In this document: positions 15,602 to 33,800 of the stretch, in pieces | Layout: the number at the start of each line of letters is the position of its first letter | How positions within the stretch are numbered: position 1 is the first letter of the stretch | NCBI GenBank assembly: GCA_030451825.1 | Contig: JAKDNL010000007.1 | Coordinates: 1-41,663, forward strand | Length of the DNA stretch: 41,663 nucleotides | Direction: 5' to 3' | DNA from: Pseudonocardia sp. | Lineage (GTDB): Bacteria; Actinomycetota; Actinomycetes; Mycobacteriales; Pseudonocardiaceae | Made by a program: the position numbers and the translations under genes | The notes under the pieces: model-generated | The model's input: the letters and a program-made list of their open reading frames with translations, nothing else | Told to the model about the DNA's origin: nothing | Databases searched by the model: none

Positions 15602-18600
15602 CGCCGAGGATCCGATAGGTGATCTCCACCCTCGCCCCGTCCGGCACCGCGTCGCGCAGGCGGCCCAGGACGTCCTCCCGTGCACCGCGGAAGGTGCGCT
15701 CAGGTGGCGGCGATGACCGAGGTAGGGGCGGCGGGGGCGGGAGCGACGGGACGACGATGAGCTCGAGCGTGTGCTTGCGCGCCTGAGACAGGACGCCCGC
15801 CATCGGGGCGGCGTCCTCGTTCGTCGCCGCCCCGGTCCGGAGCGTCTCGCGCACCGCCTGGGCACCCTGGATGCCGAGGGCCCGGAGCTGGTCGAGCAGC
15901 TGCCACTCGGTGGTCCGCAGCGTCTGCGCGACCTGAGCGGCCGAGGAGAGCGACCGGCCCAGGGTCACCAGCGGCATGTCGATCTCGGCCGTCGCCAGGG
16001 CCGTCACGAGCGACGCGGAACCATCGGCCCGGCGGAGCTCGGCGAGCAGCCGCTGCGCCGTCACGGCGGTGTGCAGCCGCGGCGACCCCCCTTCCACTCC
16101 GAGGCGGGGCAGCTGCTCCTCCAGGACGGCGACGAGATCGGCGGCCGGCGCCCGCAGCGTGTCCAGCGTCGCCCCGATCCGGGCGAACCGGGCCAGTGAC
16201 CGCGGCGAGATCACCCGGGCGTCGACGTCCGCGCCGAACAGCGCACCGGCACGCTCGACGGCGACGGCCCAGTGCTCGGGATCCGGCATCGGCTGCGGGC
16301 GCAGCAGCATGTCGTCGCGGACCTCGTCGACGCTCGTCGGCGGGTCGACGATCTGGTTCGCCCGTACCCATGCCCGCCGGCTCAGCTCGGCGTAGGTGGC
16401 CACGACGAGACTCTCCACGCGCGTGTCCAGTCCCAGGTCGGCCAGCCACCCGCGAACCTCGCGGACCGGTACGTCCTCGCCCGGCAGGCGGGCGGCGCGG
16501 CGCTCGAACTCGGTCTCCCAGTGCCGGGAGAGCACGAACGGCCCGCCGTGTTCCTCGCCGAGCCGCAGCGGATGCGCGATTCGTTGCAGCGCCGGGCGCT
16601 CCGCCTTGTCCGTCTCGGTGCGGCCGCCGTCGGAGTCGACGGCCCGGCGCACCACGCCGAGGACGGTCTTCAGCTCGGCCGTCGTCATCGGCTGGCCCTT
16701 ACGCTGCGGGTCGAGGTCGGGGTGGTCCGGGTAGGTCGCGGCGAAGCTCTGCTCCACCAGCGAACTGAGCGCGTCCGGGAACGAGCGGCCCACCTCGAGC
16801 CGGGGCGCGAGCGCGGGATCGAGGCTGATCAGGTGATCGGACCAGTCCAGGACGTTGGCCTCGTCCGGTTTGGCCAGCCCGTAGGCCTGCTTGAGCACGG
16901 TGCGGAGCTCCGAGCGAAGGTTCTCGCCCTGGTTGCGCAGCAGGTCGCGCGCCCGCTGACGGTCGTCGGCCCCGAGCCGGGTCGCGTTCTCGTCCAGGCG
17001 GGTGCCGGAGAGCAGGTGGTCGATCCGGACGAGCGTGCCCACCTTGCCCAGCACCTCGCGGGTCACGAACCCGGGCAACCAGGCCACGCAACGCGCCGGG
17101 CCGCGGCCTTTCAGCTCGGTGAGCCGGTTGCGGTCCTCGGCGGCCGAGAAGTGCGAGGCGTCGAACGGATAGTCCAGGACGATCCGCCAGCGACCGCTCT
17201 GTGCGGGCGCGAACACCTCGTCGCGCAGCTCGGTGCGATCCCGGACGTTGCCGTAGACGATCTCGACGATCCGACGGCTGCCGCGCCAGACGATCGAGTG
17301 CTCGAGCTCGAACGCGCCGTCGTCACGGACCCCGAGCTCGCCGAGCAGGAGCTCACGGAACAGGCGGCGGTGCGCGGCGTCGTTGTCGACGTGCGCGACC
17401 AGCTCCAGGATCTGCCCGGTGTCGACGCCGACCAGCTGCAGCCGCACGCTCGGATCGTCCTCGCTGCCGACCTTCAGCTCCGGGACCCGGCTGGCCCAGC
17501 TGCGCAGGCGCCGGATGACCTCCGCGACCTCCTGGCCGGGGATCATCGCCTGCACGGTGCCGTGGTTGAGCGATGCCAGCCGACGTGCCGTCATGCCGCG
17601 CAGCGCCGGGACGTCCGGCGCGAGCGCCGACAGCAGCAGCGTCTTGACCAGCCGGTCGTCGGCGCGGAACGCGGCCACGACACCGGCCTGCGCCTCGGCC
17701 GTCCCACGCGCCTGGTCCTCGGCGAGCCCGCGCTGTTCGAGCAGCATCGGACGCAGGGTGCGGCGGTAGAGCGTGCCGGCCTGGTCGAACTCGTGCTTGA
17801 GCTTCTCGGTGAACGGCTGGTCGTTGCCGTCCGCGATGGCGTCGAACAGGTCGCCGAGCGGCACCAGCTGGCCGAGCCGGAGGTCCTCGCGGCGATCGAC
17901 GAGGATCTGCTGCATCAGCTTGAGCGCGGTGCGCTCGCGCTGCAGCGCCGAGGACACGTGCACCAGGGTCTGCATGAACGCCGGGCTGAACGGGTAGGTT
18001 CGCCGGAACGCGTCCCCGTCGCCGTCGGTGAGCAGCACGTCCCGGGTGGCGCCCGGCAGCGCGTCGGTGCGCTTGAACGCGTCGGCGATCTGCTGCCCGG
18101 CCTCGGCGCTGATCGGGCGCAGGATCCGGCGCTCGGCGATCATCTCGAGGTTGCGGTCCTCCAGCGTGACGGTGAAGAACCGCCCGTCCCAGTACTTCAG
18201 CTGGTCCTGGAACGACAGGCTCTCGGCCCCTGTGCGGTTGCTTCCGATCAGCTCGCGCAGGTCCCGCTGACGGGCGATGAAGCTGACGATCGGGATCTCA
18301 CGGGACGCGTCCGAGGACTCGACGAGCTTGGCCACCTTCTCCGTCTCGCGGGTGACGAACGCGGGGTCGCCGATCTTTCCCGCCAGCCAGAGCACGAGCT
18401 CGTCCAGGAACAGCACGACGCCGCCGTAGCCGAGCTTCTTCGCGTGCGCGCTGAGCGCGGCCAGTCCCTGGTCCAGCGGCACGAACGCGTTGGCCGAGCC
18501 GGCCACGGAGTCGACGTAGCTGGGCATGAACGCTCCGACGGCGCTGCTGATCAGCTCCTGCGCCTCGACGGAGTCCGGCGCGGCCCGGAATGCCTGCTCG

Positions 18601-19211
18601 ACCTTCTCCTCGGTCCAGCCGCTGTCCACGTCGCCCCACCCGCCGTCACCGCCGGGCAGCTCGGCACGGAACGCGTCGACACCCATGCGCCGGCGAATCG
18701 CCTGAGCGTCGTCGAGCAGCCCCTGCGCCCGGTAGACGGCCGGCAGCGGAGCCTCGGGATGCATCTCGCGCACGTGCGCGACGTAGCCGCCGAGGACGGC
18801 TGCTTCGAGGCTCTCGGCACCGATCAGGTGATACGGAACGAGCAGGAACTTCTGCTCTCCCAACCAGCTGTGCTTGGCCAGTGCTTCTGCCAGCTCGGGA
18901 CGGGAGCGGGCGGCGACGTCCCCGCGCAGCAGCGCGTGCAGCACCGCCATGAAGTGGCTCTTGCCGGACCCGAACGAGCCGTGCAGATAGCTGGCCTTCG
19001 AGCGGCGGTCCGTCAGGGCGGATCCGATCAGACCGAGGGCCTGGTCGAACGACGTCTCCAGCTGGGGGGTGATGACGTACGAGTCGAGGGTGGACTTGGA
19101 CTGCTGCACACCTTCGGTCAGCCGCAGGACGAAGTCGCCCTGATGGATCCGCTCCGGGATTTCGATCAGCTCGCGGAGCAGCGGCTGCCCCGTACGTGCA
19201 GGCATCGTCAC
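15588..19211 (-). CDS. pglY: BREX-2 ATPase PglY
   Basis: 1,207 residues, the usual PglY size. Walker A GSFGSGKSHF lies near residues 78-87; FLDELVLWLAGK further on is Walker B-like. The family (BrxC/PglY, DUF6079-type) are large P-loop ATPases required for Pgl phage resistance. GTG at 19211 was chosen: GAGGGGA lies 9 bases upstream; the alternative ATG at 19205 would leave a 15-base gap. Upstream 20-24 kb is not BREX but an insertion island, so this gene starts a second transcription unit. A damaged copy of its first codons lies at 21090-21178. Confidence 0.92.
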   Translation of the reverse strand: MTMPARTGQPLLRELIEIPERIHQGDFVLRLTEGVQQSKSTLDSYVITPQLETSFDQALGLIGSALTDRRSKASYLHGSFGSGKSHFMAVLHALLRGDVAARSRPELAEALAKHSWLGEQKFLLVPYHLIGAESLEAAVLGGYVAHVREMHPEAPLPAVYRAQGLLDDAQAIRRRMGVDAFRAELPGGDGGWGDVDSGWTEEKVEQAFRAAPDSVEAQELISSAVGAFMPSYVDSVAGSANAFVPLDQGLAALSAHAKKLGYGGVVLFLDELVLWLAGKIGDPAFVTRETEKVAKLVESSDASREIPIVSFIARQRDLRELIGSNRTGAESLSFQDQLKYWDGRFFTVTLEDRNLEMIAERRILRPISAEAGQQIADAFKRTDALPGATRDVLLTDGDGDAFRRTYPFSPAFMQTLVHVSSALQRERTALKLMQQILVDRREDLRLGQLVPLGDLFDAIADGNDQPFTEKLKHEFDQAGTLYRRTLRPMLLEQRGLAEDQARGTAEAQAGVVAAFRADDRLVKTLLLSALAPDVPALRGMTARRLASLNHGTVQAMIPGQEVAEVIRRLRSWASRVPELKVGSEDDPSVRLQLVGVDTGQILELVAHVDNDAAHRRLFRELLLGELGVRDDGAFELEHSIVWRGSRRIVEIVYGNVRDRTELRDEVFAPAQSGRWRIVLDYPFDASHFSAAEDRNRLTELKGRGPARCVAWLPGFVTREVLGKVGTLVRIDHLLSGTRLDENATRLGADDRQRARDLLRNQGENLRSELRTVLKQAYGLAKPDEANVLDWSDHLISLDPALAPRLEVGRSFPDALSSLVEQSFAATYPDHPDLDPQRKGQPMTTAELKTVLGVVRRAVDSDGGRTETDKAERPALQRIAHPLRLGEEHGGPFVLSRHWETEFERRAARLPGEDVPVREVRGWLADLGLDTRVESLVVATYAELSRRAWVRANQIVDPPTSVDEVRDDMLLRPQPMPDPEHWAVAVERAGALFGADVDARVISPRSLARFARIGATLDTLRAPAADLVAVLEEQLPRLGVEGGSPRLHTAVTAQRLLAELRRADGSASLVTALATAEIDMPLVTLGRSLSSAAQVAQTLRTTEWQLLDQLRALGIQGAQAVRETLRTGAATNEDAAPMAGVLSQARKHTLELIVVPSLPPPPPLPRSSPPPERTFRGAREDVLGRLRDAVPDGARVEITYRILGDGDS

Positions 19212-19242
19212 TACGTGCAGTCCCCTCGTCAACCGTGCGGGC

Positions 19243-19254
19243 AGCCTAGTCCCC
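19243..19254 (-). promoter_or_regulatory. possible -10 element of the pglY-pglZ-brxD-brxHI unit
   Basis: On the minus strand GGGGACTAGGCT, containing TAGGCT (TANNNT type), 32 bp upstream of the GTG. The pglW leader has the near-identical GGGACTAGCGT 42 bp upstream of its start. No convincing -35 is seen for either. Low confidence as a promoter, but the shared word is real. Confidence 0.35.
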
Positions 19255-19469
19255 GGCGTCAGCGCGTGCGCGCCCGCCACGATCGAGTGACGGCCAGACG
19301 CGGGCCCGGCTGGGCGCTCCGAGCCACTCCCCACTCGGCCCGGGGGCCTCACCCCGGCCTCCGCGTGATCGACTCCTTCCGCCTCGGCTGCCCCGGCGGG
19401 TACAGCTATCGACGAGCATCTCGCCCACCGTCGCGGGCATCTCGGTCGCGGATGCCCATGTGAGACGAG

Positions 19470-19499
19470 GTGTAGCACTCTTGGAGACCGGTGTTACAC
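19470..19499. promoter_or_regulatory. paired operator half-sites upstream of vapB
   Basis: GTGTAGCAC (19470-19478) and the perfect palindrome GTGT-T-ACAC (19491-19499) lie 21 bp apart, two helix turns, and end 7 bp before the antitoxin ATG at 19507. This layout suits cooperative binding of a VapB dimer pair for autoregulation. With so little leader the mRNA may be nearly leaderless. Role inferred. Confidence 0.5.
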
Positions 19500-19506
19500 T
19501 TAGCAC

Positions 19507-19770
19507 ATGCCGACCGCGCGTCCTCGTCATTTCGTGACCGAGACCGACGATCTCGCCGCCGCACTGGACGCAGCAGCGACCCGGTGGCCCGGACTGAGTC
19601 GTGCCCAGCTACTGGTGCAACTGGCCCTGGAGGGACACAAGGCCGCCCAGCATCTCCACGATGAGCGGCACCGCCGTCGACACGCCGCCGTGCGTGAGCA
19701 CAGCGGGGCCCTGACCGGCGCTTACCCCACCGGCTACCTGGATCGACTGCGCGAGGAATGGCCGGCGTGA
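19507..19770 (+). CDS. VapB-type antitoxin
   Basis: 87 residues. The first half resembles short actinobacterial VapB antitoxins, with LAAALDAAATRWPGLSRAQL forming a predicted helical DNA-binding segment; the arginine- and histidine-rich second half (HDERHRRRHAAVREH) would wrap the toxin. Its last 13 bases overlap the PIN toxin gene, the classical vapBC arrangement. Divergent from pglY. The exact antitoxin family is not recognised; the identity rests mainly on the partner. Confidence 0.72.
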   Translation: MPTARPRHFVTETDDLAAALDAAATRWPGLSRAQLLVQLALEGHKAAQHLHDERHRRRHAAVREHSGALTGAYPTGYLDRLREEWPA

Positions 19771-20153
19771 TCGTGCTGGACGCCAATGTGATCATCGCCT
19801 ACCTCGATGGGGACCACGTCCACCATCGGCGTGCCGAGCAGCTGCTCGCCCGCGAGGTCGACGACGACTTCGGCGCCAACTCGTTGACCCTCGCCGAGGT
19901 GCTGGTCATACCCGCCCGCGAGCAGTGTCTGGATGTCGTCCGGACCGTCCTACAAGACCTGGAAATCCAGGAGCTACCGTTTCCCGGCGACACTGCTCTC
20001 CAGCTCGCCCAGCTCCGCGCGGACACCGGGCTGACGATGCCCGATTGCTGCGTGCTGCTTGCCGCCGAGCACGCCACCGCACGCGTGGCCTCGTTCGACG
20101 AGCAACTCACCAGGGCAGCGACCGCCCGCCACCTCGAAACCGTGACCGACTGA
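19758..20153 (+). CDS. VapC-type PIN-domain ribonuclease toxin
   Basis: 131 residues. The four acidic PIN residues are visible: Asp8 (VLDANV), Glu47 (LTLAEVL), Asp96 (MPDCCVL) and Asp114 (ASFDEQL). PIN toxins cut tRNA or rRNA when not bound by their antitoxin. It overlaps the antitoxin gene by 13 bp. Inserted between the two halves of the BREX locus on the opposite strand. The metal-binding set is complete, so it looks functional. Confidence 0.87.
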   Translation: MAGVIVLDANVIIAYLDGDHVHHRRAEQLLAREVDDDFGANSLTLAEVLVIPAREQCLDVVRTVLQDLEIQELPFPGDTALQLAQLRADTGLTMPDCCVLLAAEHATARVASFDEQLTRAATARHLETVTD

Positions 20154-20437: not shown

Positions 20438-20683
20438 ATGGACGTGCTGATCAGAGACTTACCGACTGACGTCCACGCAGAGCTGGCCCGTCGCGCTGCC
20501 GCCGAGGACAAGAGTCTTCGCGCCTATCTACGCGAGGTGCTCACTGAGCATGTGGCCGTTCCTTCGATGGACCAGTGGCTCGAGCACCTGCGCGAGCTTG
20601 GGCCGAACCACGTGGTCCCACCAACCGGGGCCGAGCTCGTCGCCGCTGCCCGTGCCGAGGACGACGAGCTGATGGGCCGTTGA
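20438..20683 (+). CDS. ribbon-helix-helix antitoxin, FitA/VapB type
   Basis: 81 residues. The N terminus MDVLIRDLPTDVHAELARRA followed by SLRAYLREVL is the ribbon-helix-helix signature of FitA-like antitoxins. The C-terminal tail (LVAAARAEDDELMGR) is the probable toxin-binding part. The stop TGA overlaps the toxin's TTG start (TTGA). Autoregulation through the palindrome just upstream is likely. Confidence 0.83.
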   Translation: MDVLIRDLPTDVHAELARRAAAEDKSLRAYLREVLTEHVAVPSMDQWLEHLRELGPNHVVPPTGAELVAAARAEDDELMGR

Positions 20684-21075
20684 CGATCGCCGTCGTCGAT
20701 GCCGCCACAGTCGTCGACCTGATCTGTGACCTGCCTGCCGCCGACCCGTTTCGGCATCACCTGACCGCGGCCGACGCTGTTGCCGCTCCCGCCCACCTGG
20801 ATGCCGAGGTGCTCTCGGCACTGGGTCGACTGAAGCGTGCCGGCCAGCTGACCCGCGAGGCCGAGCGTGTGGAGGCACTTCGCACATTTGGCGCCAGACG
20901 GTGGCCCCTTCGGCCTCTGTTGTCGGCCGCCTGGGCGCTGACGGACCGTATCGCGGTCCGCGATGCCCTTTATGTGGCTCTGGCGACGTCGCTCGACGCG
21001 ACCCTGGTCACCTCCGACGCGCGCCTCCGGAGGGGTGCGTCTGACATCGTCAACGTCGTCGAACCGAACGACTGA
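20680..21075 (+). CDS. PIN-domain toxin (VapC/FitB type)
   Basis: 131 residues from the TTG at 20680 which overlaps the antitoxin stop. Acidic PIN residues: Asp7 (VVDAAT), Glu43 (LDAEVLSAL), Asp95 (VRDALYVAL) and Asp113 (TSDARL). A longer frame back to 20575 lies inside the antitoxin and was rejected. Likely an intact sequence-specific RNase with its own antitoxin; the target RNA is unknown. Confidence 0.85.
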   Translation: MTIAVVDAATVVDLICDLPAADPFRHHLTAADAVAAPAHLDAEVLSALGRLKRAGQLTREAERVEALRTFGARRWPLRPLLSAAWALTDRIAVRDALYVALATSLDATLVTSDARLRRGASDIVNVVEPND

Positions 21076-21567: not shown

Positions 21568-22869
21568 CTACTCGATGACGCGAGCCTGCCAGGACACGTC
21601 GCTGTCATCGTGCCCGAGCTGCGGATGCGGTCGACCGTGTGCGTACGGCAGACACCGGTCGGCCAGTTCCGGCGTGATCGCGCCGCCTGTGCTCAGCCAT
21701 CGGACCCAGTCGGGAAGCAGCGCCACGAGCTGTTCGGCGAAATCTTCCACGTAGTAGTTGCGCACGTGCAGCACGCACAGCGCGACCCGGTGCGGAGAGC
21801 AGGTGGCGAACACCGCGCCGATGCGGCTCAGATTCCAGGAATCGGCCAGTTCCTCGGCGTACGCGTCCAGAACCTCCGACTGCGCCGAGTCGTCGGAGAC
21901 CCTGCCCCGGAGCCATGCGGTGAACTCGACTGCCGCGGTGGCCGACGTCAGATCCGTGTCGGGCCGGCCCTCCGTTGCCGGTACGACGGGAAGAACGACC
22001 TCGGCCAACCGCTTACTGCGGTGATACTCGGCGAACTGCTCGGCGTTCTCGCCACCGGGGCGCATGAACCCCGTGTCCGCGGGCAGCAGGGAAGCCAGGA
22101 GCGACCGGTCCGTGGCCGGGGCCAGGACGGTTCCGGCCGATGCGGTCTCACCCACGCCGTCCTGCCAGCCGGCGAACGCCGCCTCGGAGGACGGGTAGTA
22201 GGCACTGTGCACGGTGAAGGCATCATGCCCGCAGACGTCGATATCCCAGAGTACCAGCGAACGGACGTCTCCGCGGTCTTGATGGGGGCGGTGACGGCGA
22301 ACCGGCTGCCGTACCGGTCCGAGGTCCACAGCACCGGTCCCGTGACGTCCGGTTCGGACGGCGCGACCGGCAGCGCGCGTCCGGCGGGCAGGTTCCGCAG
22401 CCGGTTCATCGCCTCGACAACGGCATCGACATGCGGGTGTGGCAGCACGTGCGTCAACGCGGTCAGGACCCGCCACTGCGCGCGGCAGGTGTGCGAGGGC
22501 CCGGTGGTCACCGTCAACGCCTCGGTGATTGCGGCTTCGATTTCTGCGAGCAGCGCCTCGGCCAGGTCGTGCGGGCGCGCGCCCTCGGCCACCGATGACC
22601 GCTCTTCCTCGGTGAGCACGGCTCCCAGTCGCGCGCACACGGCGTCGGCCACGATGATGTCAGGCTCGTCCGCCACAGCCCGTGTGACGTCTGTGACCAG
22701 ATCCGTCGCCAGCGCCGCAGCTCGCGACCCCCGCTGCCCATCGATCTGGGCTCGTTGGGCGGTCAACCGTTCGGACGCCCGTGGCAGTTCAGAGAAGTCC
22801 TGCGCCGGGGCAGGGCCAGTTCGGCGACGTCGGGTGCCCGCACGTCAGGGCCGTAGCAGCGCGCGACAT
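21568..22869 (-). pseudogene. unrecognised gene broken by two frameshifts
   Basis: Three frames join into one protein of about 430 residues. It starts at ATG 22869 (MSRAATALTCGHPTSPNWPC), shifts near 22811 at CTGCCCCGGC into AQDFSELPRASERLTAQRA, and shifts again near 22270 between APIKTAE and VRSLVLWDIDVCGHDAF. Removing one C at the first and adding one G at the second restores the frame. The last part (NYYVEDFAEQLVALLPDWVR) runs to the TAG at 21568. No family is recognised. RBS-like GAGAGAAG precedes the ATG. Two independent lesions make sequencing error less likely than decay. Confidence 0.6.
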
Positions 22870-22980: not shown

Positions 22981-24375
22981 TCAGGAAGGCGGCGCGCCGG
23001 AAAGATCGTCCAGGTTCGCGATGCGGACACCGGTCGCGGGGTCGCGTTTCGCGGCACCGGCGGTCGGCATGTCGCGCCGCCGTTCCGGGATATCGATCAT
23101 CGGTCCGGGCTGTCGGCGCGGTGTCCGGCCCGGATCGATCCACGCCGGCGGGACGAACTCCGGGAGTCCGTCGCGGATGCGGACCAGCCATCCGGAATGA
23201 TGAATCAGCCGATGATGCCGCCTACACAGCATCACCAGATTCTCGAGTTTCGTATCGCCGAGTTCCTCCCACGGAAGAATATGATGAATTTCCGACCACG
23301 AGGGCGGCCGATCACATCCGGGATGGGCGCATCCTGTATCTCGGGCGGTCACCGCGCGGCGGAGTCCGTCGGGAATGGTCCGCGTTGCCCGTCCGACGTC
23401 GAGGGGCTGACCGTTGCCGTTCATCACGATCGGGATGACGGCGGCGTCGCAGGCCAGCATCCGCAGTGTCTCGGGTGAGGTCTGGCCGCCGAAGTCGAGC
23501 ATCCCGGACCGGGCGCGCTTCTCCAGATCCTCGAGGCGCACAATCACCGAGATCTGCGGGCGGCGCCCACCGGTCTCCGGCACCAGCGAGGTGGGCCCGT
23601 GTTCGAGGGCGAACCCGCACACCTCGGCCAGCGCCTCCGCCTGACGTTGGGCTGGTTCGCGGGTCTCGTCCGACGACGCCGGCTTGGACTTGGCGTCGAT
23701 GACGGTGGCGATGGTGTCGAACATGGCGGCGTCGTCGAAACGGCCGGTGATCTTCCCGCCGGGCCGGTTGCGGTGACGCACCAGCCGCAACTCGTTGATC
23801 TCGGGTTCGGGACGGTCGTCGGGCTCGGGGCCGTCCTGGTCGAGCTTCTCGATCAGCTCTGTGCCCCACGCCTGCAACTCGGAGGGCGTGTACTCGCCGG
23901 TGTGGGCTGCCAGCTCCACCTCGGCGGCGGCCCAGACTTCCGGTGCCAGTCGTTCGGCCGCGCGGCTGCCGAGGACCTTCGCCACGACCTCGACGTGGCG
24001 AAGACTGGTGCGGCCGGCGTCGAACACCTCGGTGGTCGACGGCAGTCGCGGCGGCAGCACGGTGCCGTCCAGCGCGACCTTGCCGACGACGTTCTCCGCG
24101 GCCATCACGTGTCGGCGGGCCTCGAATCGTTCCCAGCCCAGCAGATCCGCCAACGCGGAGGCGCTGGACTTGTAGCCGCGGGAGGTGAACACGTCCCGCC
24201 GCTCGACGGTGGCCAGAGTGCCGACCGAGAGGTGATCGAGCCGCCGCCGTCCGGCCTCGCACGCGATCAGCACGGAGAGCTGCTCGGCATCGCCCGCCCC
24301 GGTCGTAGCCGCGCGCAGCTCCTCGACCGCCTCGATGAGGCGGTCGTGCGCGGCAGCGACCCGACCGTCGGACAT
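22981..24375 (-). CDS. DUF222 / 13E12-repeat-type HNH endonuclease
   Basis: 464 residues. N-terminal DUF222 helical domain (about 1-330) with ALADLLGWERFEARRHV, then a C-terminal HNH domain at about 350-395: CAHPGCDRPP, EIHHILPWEELG, NLVMLCRRHHRLIHH, with the two-cysteine clusters and catalytic HH. This is the REP13E12 family scattered in mycobacteria and relatives and associated with mobile DNA. ATG at 24375 has GGAGGC upstream. The promoter at 24382-24410 carries an SOS box. The cut gene tail downstream suggests it came in by insertion. Confidence 0.9.
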   Translation of the reverse strand: MSDGRVAAAHDRLIEAVEELRAATTGAGDAEQLSVLIACEAGRRRLDHLSVGTLATVERRDVFTSRGYKSSASALADLLGWERFEARRHVMAAENVVGKVALDGTVLPPRLPSTTEVFDAGRTSLRHVEVVAKVLGSRAAERLAPEVWAAAEVELAAHTGEYTPSELQAWGTELIEKLDQDGPEPDDRPEPEINELRLVRHRNRPGGKITGRFDDAAMFDTIATVIDAKSKPASSDETREPAQRQAEALAEVCGFALEHGPTSLVPETGGRRPQISVIVRLEDLEKRARSGMLDFGGQTSPETLRMLACDAAVIPIVMNGNGQPLDVGRATRTIPDGLRRAVTARDTGCAHPGCDRPPSWSEIHHILPWEELGDTKLENLVMLCRRHHRLIHHSGWLVRIRDGLPEFVPPAWIDPGRTPRRQPGPMIDIPERRRDMPTAGAAKRDPATGVRIANLDDLSGAPPS

Positions 24376-24381
24376 GCCTCC

Positions 24382-24410
24382 ATGTTACTCGAACACACGT
24401 TCGCATTCAA
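24382..24410 (-). promoter_or_regulatory. promoter with LexA (SOS) box for the HNH gene
   Basis: On the minus strand: -35 TTGAAT (24405-24410), a 17-bp spacer, -10 TAACAT (24382-24387). The spacer contains TCGAAC-ACAC-GTTCG-C (+ strand 24389-24404), 11 of 12 positions of the actinobacterial LexA consensus TCGAAC-N4-GTTCGA. LexA bound here would block RNA polymerase. Several 13E12 genes of Mycobacterium tuberculosis are known LexA targets. Confidence 0.75.
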
Positions 24411-24479: not shown

Positions 24480-26786
24480 TCATGCCGGCCACCGCTTGCG
24501 CTGGTAGTCGTAGGTCTCCTCCGGTGACAGCTCCCTGGTCGAGCTGTTCATCCGGACCAGGAACGTCTGCCGCTGGTCGCCCTTGGACGGGGTGACGAAC
24601 ACCGGGCGAGCGGCCGGCCCGACGACGACCCGTGCCACGGTTCCGCCGTCCATCTCGGTGAAGCCCAACGTCACATCGGTCGCCGCAGCGCGGCCCAGGC
24701 GGGTCGACAGCAGATCGGTCAGCCACAGATCCCAACCGTCGGTGTCGCGCTTCTTGCCCTGGAACGGGTAGTCCTGCTCGATCCCGACGACCGCACCGTC
24801 GTCGGACACACCGACCAGGAGCGTGCCGCCGTCGGCGTTCATGAACCCGGCGACGGACTTCAGGACGGCGTGCTCCATGGCCGCGTCCTTCTCCCCGGTC
24901 CGCAGGTTCTTCCGCCCGGTCGACTTGAACTCGACGACCCTGCTCTCCCCCGCCGCGATGACCCGGCGGATCTCCCCGACGACGTCGGTCCCGTCGGAGG
25001 CGTAGGGATTGTCCGACCCGTCGGCCAGGCGGTTGACCGGCTTTCCGGTGGCGTCCTCGATCTGCTTGAGCAGCCGTTCGAAGCGAGCGGTGAAGAAGGC
25101 CGGGAAGTCGTCGGCGCGCAGCGCGAGGGGGTCGATGTCGTGCGAGCGCAGGATCGCATCGAGCTCCTCGGGCGCGATCGCGTCCTTCGACTCGATCCGG
25201 GCCAGGTACGCGCTCGGTGCCGCGCCCCCGATTCGGCGGTTGGTCCGGGCGTCGATCGTGGTCTTGTTGACGATGCTGTCCACCAGTGAGGTGGACTCGC
25301 CGGTTCGCGCAGCCCACGCCTTCGGGAAGATGTGGTGCACGTCGACCGCGTCGTCCACGTAGGTGTGCAGGTCGATGGCGGTGCCGGTGCGGAAGTCGCG
25401 ACCGCCGCGCTTCATCTGCTGCGCATACAGACCCTTGTAGGCCGCGCTGTTGCGGGTGCGCATGGACAGCAGCCGGCCGGCCTGGAACTGGGACTCCCGC
25501 ACGGTGCGTGGCTCGTCGCCGCCACCGACCCACGCGACGACGTCGGGCAGGTCGTAGGCGAACCGCGTCTCGGTCGATCCGCCGTACATCTCGCCGAACA
25601 CGCCGCACCAGAACCACTGCCGCAGTCGCTGGGTGACGGCGTAGCCATCAGCCTGGTCGCCGAGTACGACCATCATCGCCGTCAGGGGGACGAGTTGGGT
25701 CGGATACGGCAGGTCCCGGGCGACGAAGATCCGCTCGCCGTGCAGGAAGCGCACGACCTGCGACAGTGCGCCCGTCACATCGTCCGCCCACCTCCGGTAG
25801 TCCTCGAGCTCGAGGTCCAGGACGTCGCGGCGCTTACAGGACACCGCCGGCACCCGGTCGTCGCCCGGCTTCTCCGCGATGTGGCGCTCCCGGCGGGCGT
25901 AGGTCGCCAGCAGCGTGATGATCTGCAGGAAGTCGGTCGACGGGAACTCGCCGAGGACCGCGTAGGCCCCCAGTTCGGCCTTTCGCTTGTCCCAGTCGTC
26001 ACGCAGGCTGAAGTTGTCCGCGGCGAACGTGGCGGTGAGCAGCTCGAACACGCTCAGGGATACGCCGCCGGTGTTCACCTTCTCGAAGACCTGGCAGACG
26101 GCCTCCTTCGGCGTGGAGCGCGCGAGCTCGATCACCGGGACGCGGTACTGCAGGAACGGCGCGATGACGGCCTCGTGGAACGCCGCCCAGACCGGGAACC
26201 GGCCGGCCGCGTCGGAGGCGAGGAAGTCCTGCTGCCATCGCATCGTCTCGATCGGGTCGAGCACGATGTCGAGCGGGAACAGCTGCGCCTCGACCTGTGC
26301 GCTCCGCGTCGATGCGTCCACGTCGACCTCACCGCGGAAGTTCCGGCGCACACCGTCAGCCGGCAGCGAGACCATCGCCTCCTCGCGGTCGGCATCCGGG
26401 TCGATGCACTGCCGGATGTCGGCGAAGTAGCGGCGCGATATCGGGTTCTTGCGCACGTCCCGGGTCGGCACCGGCACCCCCGAGCGCAGCGCGAGGTAGA
26501 GCGACGTCGTGCGCTGCTGACCGTCGAGCAGCAGGAACTCCGGCTCGACCTCACCTCCCGCCACGCCCTCCAGCACCCGGGGCTTGAACTTGACCTCGGG
26601 GTTGCCGGTGCGCAGCGTCATCACCGCGCCGATCGGGTACGACCGCGACACCGACGCGAGCAGGCTCGCGATGTGGACGTCGTCCCACACCCAGCCACGC
26701 TGGAAGTCGGGAAGCTGGAGCGCACCCCCGTGGGCCCGGTCGAGCAGGGTGCTCAGTGCCATCGCGTCGCTGGTGAACGTGTCCAC
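24480..26786 (-). CDS. DUF262-DUF1524(HNH)-AlbA_2 fusion, GmrSD-like restriction factor
   Basis: About 768 residues in three parts. DUF262 (GmrS-type, 1 to ~350) has LPDFQRGWVW (25-34) and LLLDGQQRTTSL (86-97), the nucleotide-dependent core of type IV enzymes. DUF1524 HNH nuclease has HHIFPKAW at about 484-491 followed by NKTTIDARTNRRIG. The C-terminal ~165 residues form a Schlafen AlbA_2 domain: EFKSTGRKN, then GFMNADGGTLLVGVSDDG. GTG at 26786 was chosen (43 bp after pglX, GGAA upstream); an earlier GTG at 26858 would overlap pglX. GmrSD proteins cut modified phage DNA; the AlbA_2 fusion in a BREX-2 unit is unusual. Function inferred. Confidence 0.85.
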   Translation of the reverse strand: MDTFTSDAMALSTLLDRAHGGALQLPDFQRGWVWDDVHIASLLASVSRSYPIGAVMTLRTGNPEVKFKPRVLEGVAGGEVEPEFLLLDGQQRTTSLYLALRSGVPVPTRDVRKNPISRRYFADIRQCIDPDADREEAMVSLPADGVRRNFRGEVDVDASTRSAQVEAQLFPLDIVLDPIETMRWQQDFLASDAAGRFPVWAAFHEAVIAPFLQYRVPVIELARSTPKEAVCQVFEKVNTGGVSLSVFELLTATFAADNFSLRDDWDKRKAELGAYAVLGEFPSTDFLQIITLLATYARRERHIAEKPGDDRVPAVSCKRRDVLDLELEDYRRWADDVTGALSQVVRFLHGERIFVARDLPYPTQLVPLTAMMVVLGDQADGYAVTQRLRQWFWCGVFGEMYGGSTETRFAYDLPDVVAWVGGGDEPRTVRESQFQAGRLLSMRTRNSAAYKGLYAQQMKRGGRDFRTGTAIDLHTYVDDAVDVHHIFPKAWAARTGESTSLVDSIVNKTTIDARTNRRIGGAAPSAYLARIESKDAIAPEELDAILRSHDIDPLALRADDFPAFFTARFERLLKQIEDATGKPVNRLADGSDNPYASDGTDVVGEIRRVIAAGESRVVEFKSTGRKNLRTGEKDAAMEHAVLKSVAGFMNADGGTLLVGVSDDGAVVGIEQDYPFQGKKRDTDGWDLWLTDLLSTRLGRAAATDVTLGFTEMDGGTVARVVVGPAARPVFVTPSKGDQRQTFLVRMNSSTRELSPEETYDYQRKRWPA

Positions 26787-26829: not shown

Positions 26830-29800
26830 CTATCCGGCCGGCTGGTACCGCATGCCACGCCGCTGCCCGGTGCTGACCAGCCGGCCGTCGTCGACCAGGT
26901 GCTTGGCGACGGCTCGGGCCCCGGCCGCGTCGAGACCGGTCAGGTCCCGGATCTGCTCGTTGGACAGCGGACCGCTCGACGCCGCGGTGAGCACGGCGTC
27001 GAGATGCTCGGGCTCGGGAGCGGACCGTGGACGGCGCGGTGCCGGCGCCGCCGCGGAAACACCGGACCGCCTGGACAGCGCCCGCGTGCGAGGCAGCGGC
27101 GCGACGTCGACCCGCCCCGCCGGAGCCCATCCCGCCAACCCGGCGCGGCTCAGTTCGAGCTCGCCGAGCTGGGCGTCGAGGAAGCCGTCGTAGATGTCGC
27201 CGGGAGCCGCGCCGTAGACCGGATCCACCTCGGCGTGCCACTGGTGCACCCACGGCAGCACCTCGGCCAGGCCGGCCAGCAGCGGCGTCACGCGCTCCCC
27301 CGACCACCCGTCCTCGCCGCGCCGCTGCCCGACCAGCACGGCGAGCGCCTGCGCCTGCTCGCGGTGGTCCCAGCCGGCCCAGCCGAGCAGCAGGCTGCCG
27401 TCGCCGTCCCGGCTCGCGGCCGGGTAGGAGACGAATCGCTCCTTGGGCACGTCGAGCTTGCCGCGCTGGGACCAATAGCTGCCGCGCAGGAAGTCCGACG
27501 ACCCGTACTTGGGCGGAACCGGGACGTCTCCGACCTCCTTCTTGATCGCCGAACGGACCTCGGGATGGGTGACGTCGTCGTGGCCCATCCGCGCCGCGAC
27601 CGCGTCCTCGGCGCGCTGCAACGTCCAGGTGTGCTCCCACTCCGCCCGCTTGGCCAGACCGGCCGGCTTGTAGCGGTAGGCGGCCAGGAACGGGACGTGC
27701 TCCTCGTCGACGAGCGCGCCGACGACCTCGGCCAGCTCGGCGTCCGGGCGGCCCAGCGCGTCGCCGGCCCACAACCGTGCGACGGAGACGACGTCGGCGT
27801 CTGCGCGGAGCTGGTCGGTGAGGGAGCGCACGGTCTGCGGTGCGGGCTGCTCGTCGCCGTTCGCGTCGGGGGCGGACCAGAGATGATGGGCCTCGAAGCG
27901 GTCCAGCAGCCAGTTCCGGAGGGCACGCTCCTGCTGCTTCTCCCAGGACTCGCTCGCCCAGCGACGCTTGCACTCCGGACGCTCGATCAGCGCGAGGTCG
28001 CGACGGCGCTCGATCAGCGCGATGCGCGCCTCGACGGTGCGTCGGTACTCGTCGGACCAGTGGGCGGGCAGTTCGGTGATCGGGGTGGAGCCGTGGCGGG
28101 TGAACCACTGCGTCTCGATCTCTCCCGCGGCGACCTTACGGGCGAGGACGATCTCGAACGCCCGTTCACCGAGATTCAGCGGTTCAGCCGCTACTTCTGA
28201 TAAGACAACCTCGGACGCCTCAGCAATGGAGAGCAGGCCGTATTGGCAATAGACCTCCCAGTCCAGCTCTTCCTGAGCCGAGATCATCTCAGCGCGAACG
28301 CACCCGTACTCGGCACGCGATGCAGCCATACGCTCCCCCGTTGGCCTACTTGTCGGAGAAGCAGTCCCAGGAGCGGAAGAGGCGAGACTTGACGCGAGGG
28401 TGTCGATATTGCGGGCGCGATCAAGCGGAAATTCATCAGGCAGCGGAAGACCTTCAACCCGAGTCCCGTTGAACTGAAAGCGGTGCTCCCAAGGCTCGTC
28501 GGCACCAGCCTGCTCTGCACCAGGCCGGCCTTTGTTATGAGACATGCGTCTCAGCCAAAAGCACGCCGTTGACGAGTTCAACGCACCAAGGAGGCCAAGA
28601 TGAGCATCTTCGCCAGCTTCCGTCGACAGTTTAATGACGGGAGCAGTTTGCTTGAAGACTTTGCCACCTCGGTCTAGAACGAAGTGGTTCTGAGTAGCAA
28701 CCTCCGCGAATACGATCGATCGTCCCACTTCGTATCGCTTTCGATTCCAGCGATACCAGGACCACCACGGATCGCCAGACTGGAGGCGCGTCTCTCCGCC
28801 AAAGCTGGTAATTGACTGCAAGACACGACGGTTACGCCAAAGATAGCGAGCCCAGCCAGACCTCATATCAATCTCAAGCAGTTCATAGGTCTTCCCATAT
28901 GGAGCGACCGCCACCTCTCCAGTTCGGATCTCAAAATCCCGAACCAGGTCTCCAAGAATTACCGGCCGAACGACGGCGTCTTCTAACCGATTCCTGTGAA
29001 GATCGCCCATCTCGGCAAAAAAGACGTCATCAGCTCCAGGGAAGCTCGCAAATCCGATCCTCCCTTCAATGACATCCTTTAATGTTGATCTTGCATTTCG
29101 CTCGATCTTTTCCAGAAGGTCGCTCGCGCCACCCCCGGACAGGGACCATGGATGGTTCGCGAGCCTCGAACGAGGCACATCTACTACATTTACCCAGTCA
29201 GACTCACTGCCAGGATTCTCTACCTGCTTCTCGATCGCAGACCACACCAAGCCGGATTCTGGACTGTCGGGCTGCTCTGGCTCCCCCCGCACTCCGAGCA
29301 CTGCCCGAACCGCACCTCGCCTCGCCGGCGTCGCGCGCCGGCCGATGAGGATCACTGTCGGCGTCCCGTGCCCCGGGATGTACGCACCCGATGTGTCCAC
29401 GACGTAGTCCAGCTCGATCGTCGGCAGGAAATCCTCGACCAGCTTCGTGCCGAACTCCCGTTTCATGAACGCATTCGAGGTGATCTGCCCGGTGTATCCG
29501 GCGCCGAAGCCGTCATCATCCGCGCGGCGGGCAAGATCGAAGATCCGCTGCGCGAAAGGGACCGTCAGCTGGAACTGGCGGTGACAGGCCGACCAGTGCT
29601 TGCGGTAGTACTCGTTCTGCTCCGGATCCTTCACCGTGATGTAGGGCGGATTGCCCACCACCGTGTGGTAGCTGGCCGATTCGAGCAGTCGCTCGTCGGC
29701 GAAGTCGTCGACGTCCTCCCAGCGCGCCCGGTGCCCGACGGCCGCGCCCGCCTCGGCGATCGACTCCGAGCGCTCCGTGGCGCGCAGCGAGTCGGCGCAT

Positions 29801-30738
29801 CCCACGATTGAGCTCCAGCGCTGGCGCGACGCTCGGGCCAGGGTTGTGACACCCGCGGTCCGCAAGGCCGCGACCAGCAACCGAAACCGCACGATCGCCA
29901 CGGCGAATGGGTTGGTGTCCACGCCGTGCACGGAGTCGAGCGAGCGGCGCACAAGCTCGTAGTCGTCCAGGGTCGGTGCCGCCTCCCGCCACGCCTCGAC
30001 CAGACGGTCGAACGCGCCGAGCAGGAAGTGCCCGCTCCCGCAGGCCGGGTCGATCAGGCGTAGCCCGTCGAGTCCGAACTCCTCGATCGCGGGGGCGAGC
30101 GTGCGCTGCAGGATGAAGTTCTCGATGAAGCGGGGCGTCTGCAGCAGCGCGTAGCGCTTCTTAGCGTCTTCGGACAGGTCCTGGTAGAGGTCGCCGAGGA
30201 AGCGCGTGTCCCAGGAGGGGTCGGTGAAGTCGTGCCGCAGCCCGTTCCCGTCTGTACTGCGCCAGAACGCGACGAGTGCCTTGGCCGCGTCGTGCGAGAT
30301 CGGCACCCAGTACATCGGGTTGTGCTCGGGGTCGAACAGGAGTCGACCGGCGTCGGTGCTGCGCAGCACCTCGAACTGCCCGGCCAGCCAGTCTCCGTCG
30401 TTGTGCTCGGGGTGGCGGCGATAGTGCGCGAGCTGGGCGTCCTCAGCGACCGCGAGGCGGTCCCCGGGCCCGGAGAGCACCGGCTCGATCAGGCCGTTGT
30501 CCTCCGACCAGCGCAGGAACACCGTCCCCAGCACCCAGGCGACCGCGATCTGGGTGAGCTGCGCGTCGCGCCAGGCCGGCCACTCGGACGCGGTGCGGCG
30601 GGCCTTGCGCTCGGCGTCGTACTCATCGCGCAGCAGGACAGCGGGTGCCGAGTCGGGGGCGAGCTGCTCGGACAGGTCGGTTTCGAGAAGCTTCACCTGC
30701 TTCTGCAGGTCGGCCAGCAGCCTCTTCGAGTCGATCAT
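26830..30738 (-). CDS. pglX: BREX-2 adenine-specific DNA methyltransferase PglX
   Basis: 1,302 residues. SAM-binding motif I DPACGSGHF at 230-238 and catalytic motif IV NPPYIT at 363-368 define an N6-adenine methyltransferase of the Eco57I/PglX type. The region after the catalytic domain (about 487-850) should read the DNA target; it includes FKQTAPVIKLS and LGALNSSTACFWLRRM, typical of such specificity domains. Its DNA (about 28190-29280) is far lower in G+C than the flanks. ATG at 30738 has GGGGGAGA upstream; a longer frame to 30801 is rejected. Essential for Pgl/BREX defence in Streptomyces coelicolor. Confidence 0.93.
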   Translation of the reverse strand: MIDSKRLLADLQKQVKLLETDLSEQLAPDSAPAVLLRDEYDAERKARRTASEWPAWRDAQLTQIAVAWVLGTVFLRWSEDNGLIEPVLSGPGDRLAVAEDAQLAHYRRHPEHNDGDWLAGQFEVLRSTDAGRLLFDPEHNPMYWVPISHDAAKALVAFWRSTDGNGLRHDFTDPSWDTRFLGDLYQDLSEDAKKRYALLQTPRFIENFILQRTLAPAIEEFGLDGLRLIDPACGSGHFLLGAFDRLVEAWREAAPTLDDYELVRRSLDSVHGVDTNPFAVAIVRFRLLVAALRTAGVTTLARASRQRWSSIVGCADSLRATERSESIAEAGAAVGHRARWEDVDDFADERLLESASYHTVVGNPPYITVKDPEQNEYYRKHWSACHRQFQLTVPFAQRIFDLARRADDDGFGAGYTGQITSNAFMKREFGTKLVEDFLPTIELDYVVDTSGAYIPGHGTPTVILIGRRATPARRGAVRAVLGVRGEPEQPDSPESGLVWSAIEKQVENPGSESDWVNVVDVPRSRLANHPWSLSGGGASDLLEKIERNARSTLKDVIEGRIGFASFPGADDVFFAEMGDLHRNRLEDAVVRPVILGDLVRDFEIRTGEVAVAPYGKTYELLEIDMRSGWARYLWRNRRVLQSITSFGGETRLQSGDPWWSWYRWNRKRYEVGRSIVFAEVATQNHFVLDRGGKVFKQTAPVIKLSTEAGEDAHLGLLGALNSSTACFWLRRMSHNKGRPGAEQAGADEPWEHRFQFNGTRVEGLPLPDEFPLDRARNIDTLASSLASSAPGTASPTSRPTGERMAASRAEYGCVRAEMISAQEELDWEVYCQYGLLSIAEASEVVLSEVAAEPLNLGERAFEIVLARKVAAGEIETQWFTRHGSTPITELPAHWSDEYRRTVEARIALIERRRDLALIERPECKRRWASESWEKQQERALRNWLLDRFEAHHLWSAPDANGDEQPAPQTVRSLTDQLRADADVVSVARLWAGDALGRPDAELAEVVGALVDEEHVPFLAAYRYKPAGLAKRAEWEHTWTLQRAEDAVAARMGHDDVTHPEVRSAIKKEVGDVPVPPKYGSSDFLRGSYWSQRGKLDVPKERFVSYPAASRDGDGSLLLGWAGWDHREQAQALAVLVGQRRGEDGWSGERVTPLLAGLAEVLPWVHQWHAEVDPVYGAAPGDIYDGFLDAQLGELELSRAGLAGWAPAGRVDVAPLPRTRALSRRSGVSAAAPAPRRPRSAPEPEHLDAVLTAASSGPLSNEQIRDLTGLDAAGARAVAKHLVDDGRLVSTGQRRGMRYQPAG

Positions 30739-30855
30739 CGTGCGTCTCCCCCTCGGAGCTGGTGCGAGCGCCCGTCGCCGCGTGCACGGCGGGTACGTCA
30801 CCCGGCGTCGCGGGATCGTTACCCGCGGCGCCGGCCTGTATGTGATCGAGTGCGG

Positions 30856-33800
30856 TCAGGCCGCCGTTAACGACGCCCAGCTCGACGGCGCGACGACCCA
30901 CTCCTCGCCGGTCACCAGCCCGACGGCGTGGGTGCCGATCCGCGGCGGCTCGTTCTCGTCCTGCGCCGCGCAGAGCACGACCACCACCCGCGGGCCCGGG
31001 TCCTGGCCGCCGCGGCGGGCCGCCTCGAGAATCCGGTGCAGCACCGCCATGCCGCCGGCGTAGCGGCCGAACGGGGTCAGGCTGTCGAGTACCAGCACGT
31101 CGGTGACCGCCCACTGTGCCTCGAGTCGCTGCCAGGCCTCCTCGACCACTCGGCCCAGGTTCGTGCGGGCCCGGGTGTCGGCGTCCGGGGCGTCTGCGCG
31201 CAGGACGACGTCGAAGTCGGCGATGCGCCGGTCGTGGGCCACGCCGCGCAGCGCCTCGACGAACGCGGCCGACGCGTCGACCGGCTCCACTCCGGCGAGC
31301 CCCTCGACCCGTTCCCGGGTGGCCAGCCAGCGCGAGCGCCGGAACGTCACCACGCGCACGCCACCGCGCCGCCTCGCGTGCCCGAGCCGGGCGTCCGGAC
31401 CGCCCTCGGCCGAGGCCGCCACGAGTGCCGAGTGGGCGGAGCCGGACGAGAGGCTGGTGTGCCGGGAGCTCGACGAGTTGCCGATCGTCGGAGGGACGAG
31501 CCGGTCGCCGTTCCAGCGCAGCTCGATCCCGAGCTCGCGCAGCTGAGATGCCAGCTCCGGGCCGTCCGGGAGCGGGGCGATGCCCGGGAAACGGGCCGAG
31601 ACCCGGCGGCCGAGGGCCTCCGGCGTCAGGCCCTCCGGCGGGATCCCGGCTCCTGCTTGCGACAGCCTCAGGGCCCGCAGCGGGTCGAGATCGGTCGGGT
31701 AGAGCTCCAGCCGCGCGTTGGCCAGGACCGTCCCGGCGGCGGCCGCGGCGAGCTGCACCATCCGCTGCTCGGCCAGGACGAGCTCGAAACGACGGGTCAC
31801 CGTCTCCAGTGCGCGAACCACCGCGACCGGGGTCGGCAGCGGGTCGACAGCTGCCAGCCGGATCGCCTCGTCGGCGAGGTCGGCGGCCATGTCGATCAGG
31901 TCGTCGTCGTTCGCGATGTCCAGGGACTCGTCCTCACCCACCTGCAGCGCCACGAGCATGCGGTCCCCGTGGCGGCGGGCGCGGAACCGGGGCGCCTCCG
32001 CGACGGAGTCGGCCTCCACCACGGCTCGCAGTACCGCGTAGCCGCAGGCCCACCGACGGTCGGGATCGTCCTCGTCGGCGCACCCGCGGGCCACGAGCAG
32101 CTCGGCGACGAGCTCGCTCGCCGCGGCCACCCGGCCGCGGCCGCGCAGCGTCTCGGCCACGTCGTCGGCCAGGTCGCGGACGGCGGGCAGGTCGGCCCAC
32201 TCCAACCGGCGCTTCTGGGTGAGCTGGCTGATCCGGGCGCGGGTGAGCCCGAACGCGGGAGCCAGGTCGGTCATGCTCGGCCACCGCACCGGCGGGGGCT
32301 CGCCGGCCCCGTCCGGCAACCCGAGCACCGCACGAGCGACCTCGCGTTGATCGACGCCCTTGGTGTTCTGTGCCGGAAGCAGCGCGAGGGCGATCGTGTC
32401 CAGCGCGCGGGGAGACTCGACCGGGGTCACCGGGTCGTCCGGCGGTGCCGGTGTACCGGGCGCGGGCAGCTTCTTGCGCCAGGTGCCGGCCCGGTTCACC
32501 AGCTCGAGCCGGGTGTTGCGGGACAGGCCGCGGGCCCGCCACAGCATCCGGTTCGGGATTCCGATCAGCTCACCCACCGTGTCCGCGCCGAGGCGCTGGG
32601 CGACCGCGACCGCACGCAGCGACAGCCCGGCCGCACTCAGTGCGGTGTCCGCCGTCGCGGCGGCGGCGGCCTCGTCGCGCTGCTCCTGGGGGTCGTCGGA
32701 GTCGCTGTGCGAGGTCGTCGCCGGGCGTTCGGCGTCCATCGCGGTGAAGATCCGGTTCCAGGCCTGGCGCATCGCCGCGGCCGTGGGGAACCGCTGGTCG
32801 GCGTCGCGGTGCAGGGCGGTGGTGAGGAATCCGACCAGGCCGTCGCGCAGGCCGGCGTCGAACACCTCGGACGCGAGGGTCACCGACTCGACGAACTGTG
32901 CGTCGCTGCCGTCGTCGCCCCAGGCCGGCAGCTCCAGGCTGGCCATCTCGTGCAGCGTGACCGCGACCGCGTACAGCTCGGCCGCACGGTCGAAGGTGGG
33001 ACGGGTGGGAGGCCCGAGGAAGGGGTCCCGGTAGCCGCGGGTACCCGCGGTTACGTCGGTGGTCGCCGCGCCGGCCAGCGAGAAGTCGAACAGCATCAGG
33101 TCCGGGCCGCGCTTGGGGTGGCGGCTGACGCCGACGTTGTCCGGCTTGATGTCGCGGTGGAAGACCTCCTTGCCCTCCAGATAGCCGACGGCGTCGAGCA
33201 GCTGGTCGCCGAACCGTTGCAGCTGGTCGGGCAGCTGGACGCCCTCGTCGCGCAGCAGTCCGCCCAGGGTCTGGTCGCCGGCGTAGTCGATCTCGATGGC
33301 GTGCCGGCCGCCGCCGAGGGCGAACGCACCGCGCTTGAGCGAGACGAGATGGTCGTGACGCAGGCCGTCGAGCACGACGGCCTCGTCGTCGAGACGCTGT
33401 TCGGCCGCGGCGCTGCGCCCCACCTTCAGCACCGACCGGTGGCCGTCGCGCTCCACGAGGAAGGCGCGGGCGGTGGCGCCGGTCCCGAGCACGCGCTCGA
33501 CGGCGTAGCCGTCGGAGAGTTCGGTTCCGGCCTGGGCCTCCCAGGGGTCGACGACCGGCGGAACGTCGTCGGTGCCCGACAGCGACGCAAGGTGCTCGAG
33601 GAAGAACTCGACGTCGGCGATCCGGTCCTGCACCAGCGGGCGGGTCGAGTCGAAGATCAGGTCGTCGAGGTCGCCGGGCAGCGAGTCGTCGACGGCGCTG
33701 GGGTGCAGACCGCCCGCGGTCTTCAGCTGCTCCGCGAGTGCCGCGCGGTCCGCGGCCGGGGCCTTCCCGGTCAGGATCAGGTACGCCGTCGCGCCCAGAC

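Follow-up and report, generated by a model that had tools for sequence, protein, structure and literature searches.

What does a protein that joins both halves of a GmrSD-type restriction enzyme to an AlbA_2 domain of the Schlafen/SAMD9 type do inside a bacteriophage exclusion (BREX) locus, and is it a part of that system? The question is raised by a stretch of 41,663 nucleotides from a Pseudonocardia sp. draft genome (contig JAKDNL010000007.1 of assembly GCA_030451825.1; this whole stretch is referred to here as the window), in which the fusion gene lies in the interval between pglX and pglY of a BREX-2 locus. The initial annotation had proposed the three-part architecture, the kinship to GmrSD and BrxU, and the position 43 bp after pglX. 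All three are supported: GmrSD_N and SLFN_AlbA_2 are called by Pfam and the HNH region is identified by fold matches; the domains, the DGQQR motif, and the HNH region are shared with GmrSD/BrxU; and the distance from the pglX stop codon to the start of the fusion gene is 43 bp, with both genes on the minus strand. Judged from sequence, the chances are about even that the fusion is a GmrSD-type (BrxU-like) DNase whose AlbA_2 tail is a portable module of RNase type, and that BREX-2 carries the gene between pglX and pglY as accessory cargo. The gene and its parts are as follows.

24480 to 26786, minus strand: GmrSD-HNH-AlbA_2 fusion gene, 768 amino acids, with GTG as the predicted start codon
26025 to 26753, minus strand: GmrSD_N domain (DUF262, ParB/Srx-like), residues 12-254, Pfam 8.8e-27
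26511 to 26525, minus strand: DGQQR motif, residues 88-92, from sequence alignments
25107 to 25445, minus strand: HNH nuclease region, about residues 448-560, from Cas9-HNH fold matches
25323 to 25337, minus strand: HHIFP motif, residues 484-488, inside the HNH region
24528 to 24947, minus strand: AlbA_2 (Schlafen/SAMD9-type) tail, residues 614-753, Pfam SLFN_AlbA_2 5e-13
24924 to 24947, minus strand: stretch of the tail from E614 to K621, with catalytic-type residues

By sequence and fold, the protein consists of a ParB domain with a nucleotide site, a nuclease of HNH type, and an AlbA_2 tail that has the Schlafen catalytic residues. As in GmrSD/BrxU enzymes, a DUF262 domain with DGQQR stands at the N-terminus and a DUF1524-type HNH domain follows it, the latter recognised by fold, with no Pfam call of DUF1524 on the protein. 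Residues Q91 and R92 are the counterparts of Q101 and R102 of BrxU, and DGQQR is at least 90 % conserved in an alignment of 37 rows and invariant in one of 14 rows. In the HNH region H485, F487, and P488 are invariant (37-row alignment); H485 aligns with H475 of BrxU, and H484, nearly invariant in the subfamily, replaces D474. The catalytic motif of BrxU is DHIYP, in which both D474 and H475 are essential. The core, like tailed relatives, matches the PADLOC models PDC-M55C (7.6e-25) and HEC-05 (3.9e-17), which have the status of candidate defence models and, at 554 and 583-621 positions, cover the GmrSD part only. Codon composition is alike in core and tail, and the domain order is repeated in eight further genes, one of which is broken (L144) and one of which ends at a contig edge (L146).

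That the tail has an AlbA_2 fold, as proposed, is supported by both Pfam and fold comparison; the model of the tail by itself matches SAMD9 and SLFN structures, and SAMD9 domains are its nearest characterised fold matches. E614, E619, and K621 are the counterparts of the catalytic E209, E214, and K216 of SLFN11, in a register taken from an SLFN14 profile alignment, and are invariant in nine of nine aligned tails. All 37 tails examined retain the pattern E-x4-E-x-K/R, which spans the residues that are essential to SLFN11. Among three close members, the ratio of non-synonymous to synonymous substitution rates (dN/dS) ranges from 0.09 to 0.13 in the core and from 0.09 to 0.21 in the tail, and the tail is therefore under purifying selection. 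Since there is a single AlbA_2 domain rather than a two-lobed Slfn core, the fusion is not a Schlafen proper, but at most Schlafen-like in its tail. An RNase role for the tail is, from its residues, an evenly balanced call. A pure binding role is somewhat less probable: here the tail would be a non-catalytic nucleic-acid binder or targeter that helps the core to locate or retain DNA or RNA of the phage, or that senses a nucleic-acid signal which opens the core. However, the proteins that carry the tail already bind DNA, and an E, E, K pattern in all of the 37 tails is more than binding by itself should require. The pattern is present in only three of six other AlbA_2 domains checked (Pfam matches in BREX-2 genomes), although in one of the six (L141) the match begins too late for the motif to be judged.

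Support for a portable tail comes from a tail-profile search over part of the collected stretches, excluding the window, in which 37 open reading frames representing 36 genes were found (L029 and L118 denote one gene); the set is biased, as the fusion itself was the query. In 31 of these frames five residues or fewer follow the tail, and in the other six 10-21 residues do. The host proteins, assigned by Pfam or by blastp to Pfam-checked members, are as follows.

GmrSD cores of the clade of the window: six, plus the Leucothrix core, one
Other GmrSD subfamilies: L115, L116, L117, L118, L122, L123, L124
BrxL: five (L226, L227, L228, L233, L234)
Type I HsdR: eight (L223, L224, L225, L229-L232, L235), with a probable ninth (L039)
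Restriction endonuclease (MTES_1575)-helicase: L222
Weak match to a STAND NTPase: L237
Incomplete distant core: L121
Unmatched: L014, L025, L032, L034, L040; by eye, several of these look anchored in the membrane

In a tree of the 37 tails, weak at its base, the GmrSD, HsdR, and BrxL tails are scattered, with seven changes for four groups where the minimum is three. The AlbA_2 tail thus looks like a portable C-terminal defence module, and not a part of BREX-2 alone. In the five BrxL proteins the AlbA_2 end stands in place of the LonP or HKD end described for BrxL, as far as the C-termini are covered in the parts of PMC12839542 consulted.

The core was followed separately. A scan of a named-genome collection (84,980 species) matched at least 587 stretches, with at least 512 confirmed relatives, and the counts given here refer to the best 80 of these. 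Seven have an AlbA_2 tail, one has an OLD-like TOPRIM tail (L159), and one has a protein-kinase tail (L218). The seven are from Streptosporangium, Micromonospora, Nonomuraea (where the gene is broken by a frameshift and a stop in its draft), metagenome-assembled genomes (MAGs) of Candidatus Binatia, of an unplaced bacterium, and of Vicinamibacteraceae, and Leucothrix. Core identity to the window is 44-63 % for tailed proteins and up to 53 % for untailed ones; the fusion L102 of genome G729 is 59 % identical to the window protein over the full length. In a tree of 93 cores, of a quick kind and without bootstrap, the window, L102, and the first six tailed relatives form one clade (Shimodaira-Hasegawa-like approximate likelihood ratio test, SH-aLRT, 99), whereas Leucothrix falls among untailed Pseudomonadota (support of 100 with Roseospirillum), so that there are two changes in tail state. 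The AlbA_2 tail therefore occurs a second, separate time within the core family. Likewise, as the core of the same family in L159 (2062-4896) ends in an OLD-like TOPRIM tail, the C-terminal tails of this family are exchanged.

As for the locus, the genes of BREX-2 are present in the window, as follows.

26830 to 30801, minus strand: pglX, BREX-2 methyltransferase (NF033451, 1624.9 bits; start uncertain)
30856 to 35046, minus strand: pglW (NF033442, 1382.6 bits)
15588 to 19478, minus strand: pglY (NF047891, 1200.5 bits against a cut-off of 1700; PADLOC BrxC-PglY, 1381 bits)
12989 to 15865, minus strand: pglZ (NF033446, 637 bits; start uncertain)
11676 to 12992, minus strand: brxD (NF033438, 642.7 bits)
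9570 to 11672, minus strand: brxHI (PADLOC BrxHI, 315.8 and 594.9 bits, in two pieces)

The NCBIfam cut-offs are passed by pglW, pglX, pglZ, and brxD; pglY is below its cut-off but clear by PADLOC, and because its family match begins at residue 99 the gene start is probably near 19184. In brxHI there is an in-frame stop (11142-11144, minus strand) between two helicase halves of one frame, due either to a broken gene or to an error in the draft, which has 968 contigs and 8.3 % contamination. Elsewhere in the same genome (L100, contig C575) there is a second pglX-pglW pair of BREX-2, with a GmrSD_N gene upstream of pglW.

Surveys of 397 genomes of the order and 396 of the phylum identified a BREX-2 pglX in 50 and 8, respectively, with three genomes in both. 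The linkage count, which includes the window, compares 58 pglX loci with 69 GmrSD_N places in 55 distinct genomes. GmrSD_N is present within 5, 10, and 15 kb of 7, 14, and 18 of the 58 loci, where even scatter would give about 0.14, 0.25, and 0.35, and AlbA_2 within the same distances of 3, 4, and 5 loci, where 0.07, 0.12, and 0.17 would be expected. GmrSD-type genes are therefore enriched beside BREX-2, which supports the initial annotation in part; as defence islands are uneven, the enrichment over even scatter indicates linkage, not function. It also speaks against the fusion being a plain defence-island passenger, for which the BREX-2 neighbourhood would be functionally meaningless and the tail would regulate its own gene. 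This is very improbable, since the tail is in separate lineages, is on several restriction proteins, and is under purifying selection, although it is also found at the end of proteins with no recognised restriction domain, and the scanned neighbours of two tailed relatives (L142 and L147) include no defence family, the remaining neighbours being judged by eye.

The other possibility is that the fusion is an integral BREX-2 effector, activated by PglX/PglW or acting on DNA that they mark. Besides the enrichment and the place of the gene directly behind pglX on the same strand, two loci favour this. Genome G811 has a second GmrSD-AlbA_2 gene (L122), which shares the strand of pglW and stands about 0.18 kb upstream of it. 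The other locus is that of a Deltaproteobacteria MAG (L218), where the slot between pglX and pglY is occupied by a kinase-tailed GmrSD from the core family of the window that starts 56 bp past the end of the pglX match. The L218 gene (10001-12535) encodes the GmrSD core and a Ser/Thr protein kinase domain; PglW of that locus is itself a kinase. However, the GmrSD subfamilies at BREX-2 are very different from one another, the L122 core being 27 % identical to that of the window over residues 11-285. Both domains are in one gene in five cases in the 55 genomes (the window, G811, G729, G659, and G687); the G729 fusion is 0.8 kb from a PglX-like gene, with no pglW, pglY, or pglZ in its examined stretches, and the G659 and G687 genes lie away from pglX.

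The interval itself was measured in 47 loci with both pglX and pglY in view, excluding the window (9 further loci were unmeasurable). It is 300 bp or less in 26 loci, 0.3-2 kb in 6, and more than 2 kb in 15, and the GmrSD part of the fusion has no tblastn match (E 1e-5) in any of the 47. The AlbA_2 part by itself has one match, in the L072 interval, and this lies in the STAND-like protein of L237. After pglX in L057, L065, and L077, where pglY is not in view, there are distant matches to GmrSD; for the genome of L077 (G139) a second stretch, L133, places the GmrSD gene between pglX and pglY. The short intervals and the absence of GmrSD matches in them indicate that the fusion is cargo and not a core component, as it is not present in BREX-2 loci generally.

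Nor were BREX-2 genes recognised by tblastn in the flanks (up to 10 kb) of the seven tailed relatives among the best 80. Five have neighbours of other kinds.

L163: between two HsdM genes, with 4-bp overlaps; an HsdS gene follows
L143: after type IIG, DruE-like, and UvrD-like genes
L146: before a type IIG/DrmMI-like enzyme and an Snf2/DrmD-like helicase
L144: after an Mrr-type nuclease
L145: after AbiEii-type and Gp49/helix-turn-helix (HTH) toxin-antitoxin-like genes

Three of the seven thus sit in type I, type IIG, or Druantia-like loci. The specific tie to BREX-2 is therefore not supported in the form in which it had been proposed, and an integral effector is unlikely. In the genome of the window (L101, contig C145) the end of the type IIG gene and the DruE-like and UvrD-like genes of L143 recur at about 40 % identity; the opposite strand beside them encodes a different protein with DUF262.

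For a two-effector enzyme carried as cargo, a working model can be proposed. The ParB-like N-terminal domain would bind and hydrolyse nucleotide and gate the recognition of (probably modified) phage DNA, which the HNH domain would cut, with DNA cutting gated by a nucleotide-driven dimer-monomer switch like that suggested by BrxU. The tail would be a second effector of RNase type, most likely tRNA-cutting, freed or paired on activation of the GmrSD part, and would halt translation if DNA restriction were insufficient. On a dimerising GmrSD core it could join or part two AlbA_2 lobes, resembling the two-lobed Schlafen core, and such pairing or parting would couple the sensing of phage DNA to tRNA cutting.

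Several observations weigh against this proposal. The core manages without a tail in 71 of the 80 relatives, which have fewer than 70 residues after the core and no recognised tail. At the presumed active site, the essential D474 of BrxU is replaced by a histidine in this subfamily, and the histidine at the catalytic position is missing in 3 of the 14 core rows (L109, L113, and L132). Five AlbA_2 proteins that have no recognised restriction domain also show E-x4-E-x-K, as do half of the six other AlbA_2 proteins checked, so the motif is no proof of RNase activity. Of the single fold matches of the tail, the best is the uncharacterised 3lmm; the SAMD9 domain binds DNA as well, and a rabbit SAMD9 fragment is inactive unless extended. 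Human Schlafens work as two-lobed dimers, whereas the fusion has one AlbA_2 lobe. Lastly, because of the stop in brxHI, the BREX-2 copy of the window may be inactive, or the draft may hold an error. The role of the tail is directly testable, as natural tailed and untailed proteins are available for comparison.

The remainder of the interval holds other genes. Directly after the fusion is a DUF222-HNH gene (22981-24375, minus strand), of which the same genome has five further copies or pieces at 70-83 % identity and one more match of only 30 bases. Just upstream of it is a palindrome, CGAAC-N4-GTTCG (24390-24403), which we take to resemble the actinobacterial LexA/SOS box of 13E12-type repeats. 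A gene at about 21568-22766 (minus strand) apparently shifts frame in the draft, and neither piece matches Pfam. Also between pglX and pglY are two PIN-domain toxin-antitoxin-like pairs on the plus strand (19510-20153 and 20438-21075); the toxins match Pfam PIN families, the second antitoxin is a FitA-like ribbon-helix-helix protein, and the first has no family match.

If the tail is catalytic, DNA restriction and translation shut-off would be combined in one polypeptide; the effectors of type I, type IV, and BREX systems are, to our knowledge, generally regarded as DNA-only. It is suggested, tentatively and with rather less than even confidence, that unrelated restriction effectors (GmrSD subfamilies, HsdR, BrxL, and restriction endonuclease-helicases) have repeatedly, and in separate events, acquired a C-terminal RNase tail of the SAMD9/Schlafen type, giving two-target enzymes that act on invading DNA and, as a fail-safe, on host or phage tRNA. 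A shared tail would suggest a route from restriction to abortive infection and would link the restriction systems of bacteria to the antiviral tRNases SAMD9 and SLFN11/13/14; were the proposal true, human antiviral tRNases and an add-on module of bacterial restriction would have a common ancestor.

GmrSD (ParB-HNH), Schlafen-family RNases, and PIN RNases next to BREX genes are already catalogued in PMC12839542, in the parts consulted as separate proteins, the Schlafen having a histidine kinase and a winged helix-turn-helix as its fusion partners, whereas the fusion described here joins the two. Its main text contains neither 'AlbA' nor 'DUF262' by word search, and neither a GmrSD-AlbA_2 nor a BrxL-AlbA_2 fusion was found in the parts examined. 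The extra domains noted in the GmrSD family paper are, in the part consulted, DUF4268, DUF4357, and DNA_binding_1 (PMC4619093), and no report of a GmrSD-AlbA_2 fusion was found in open-licence PubMed Central (PMC) papers. GmrSD and Schlafen RNases are thus known separately as BREX auxiliaries, and the portability of the tail across restriction proteins goes beyond the initial annotation.

Among characterised systems, SLFN11, 13, and 14 have two AlbA_2-like lobes in a dimeric core, whereas the fusion has one lobe on a restriction enzyme. The tRNase (AlbA_2) domain of SAMD9 (7ksp, 9o0d), an animal protein with other domains, is about 17 % identical to the tail; the link is based on fold comparison, with SAMD9 not among the sequence-profile matches of the tail. 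SspE and DndI, DUF262 enzymes of phosphorothioate defence belonging to the Ssp and Dnd systems, match the fusion less well than BrxU does. BrxU of Escherichia fergusonii (PDB 7P9K/7P9M), a GmrSD-family type IV enzyme, is about 17 % identical to the fusion, lacks the AlbA_2 tail, has DHIYP where the fusion has HHIFP, and stands beside a type 1 BREX rather than BREX-2. By analogy, the link of the fusion to BREX-2 is best seen as the co-carriage of complementary layers of defence, as BrxU and type 1 BREX are shown to be in the parts of PMC8565348 consulted.
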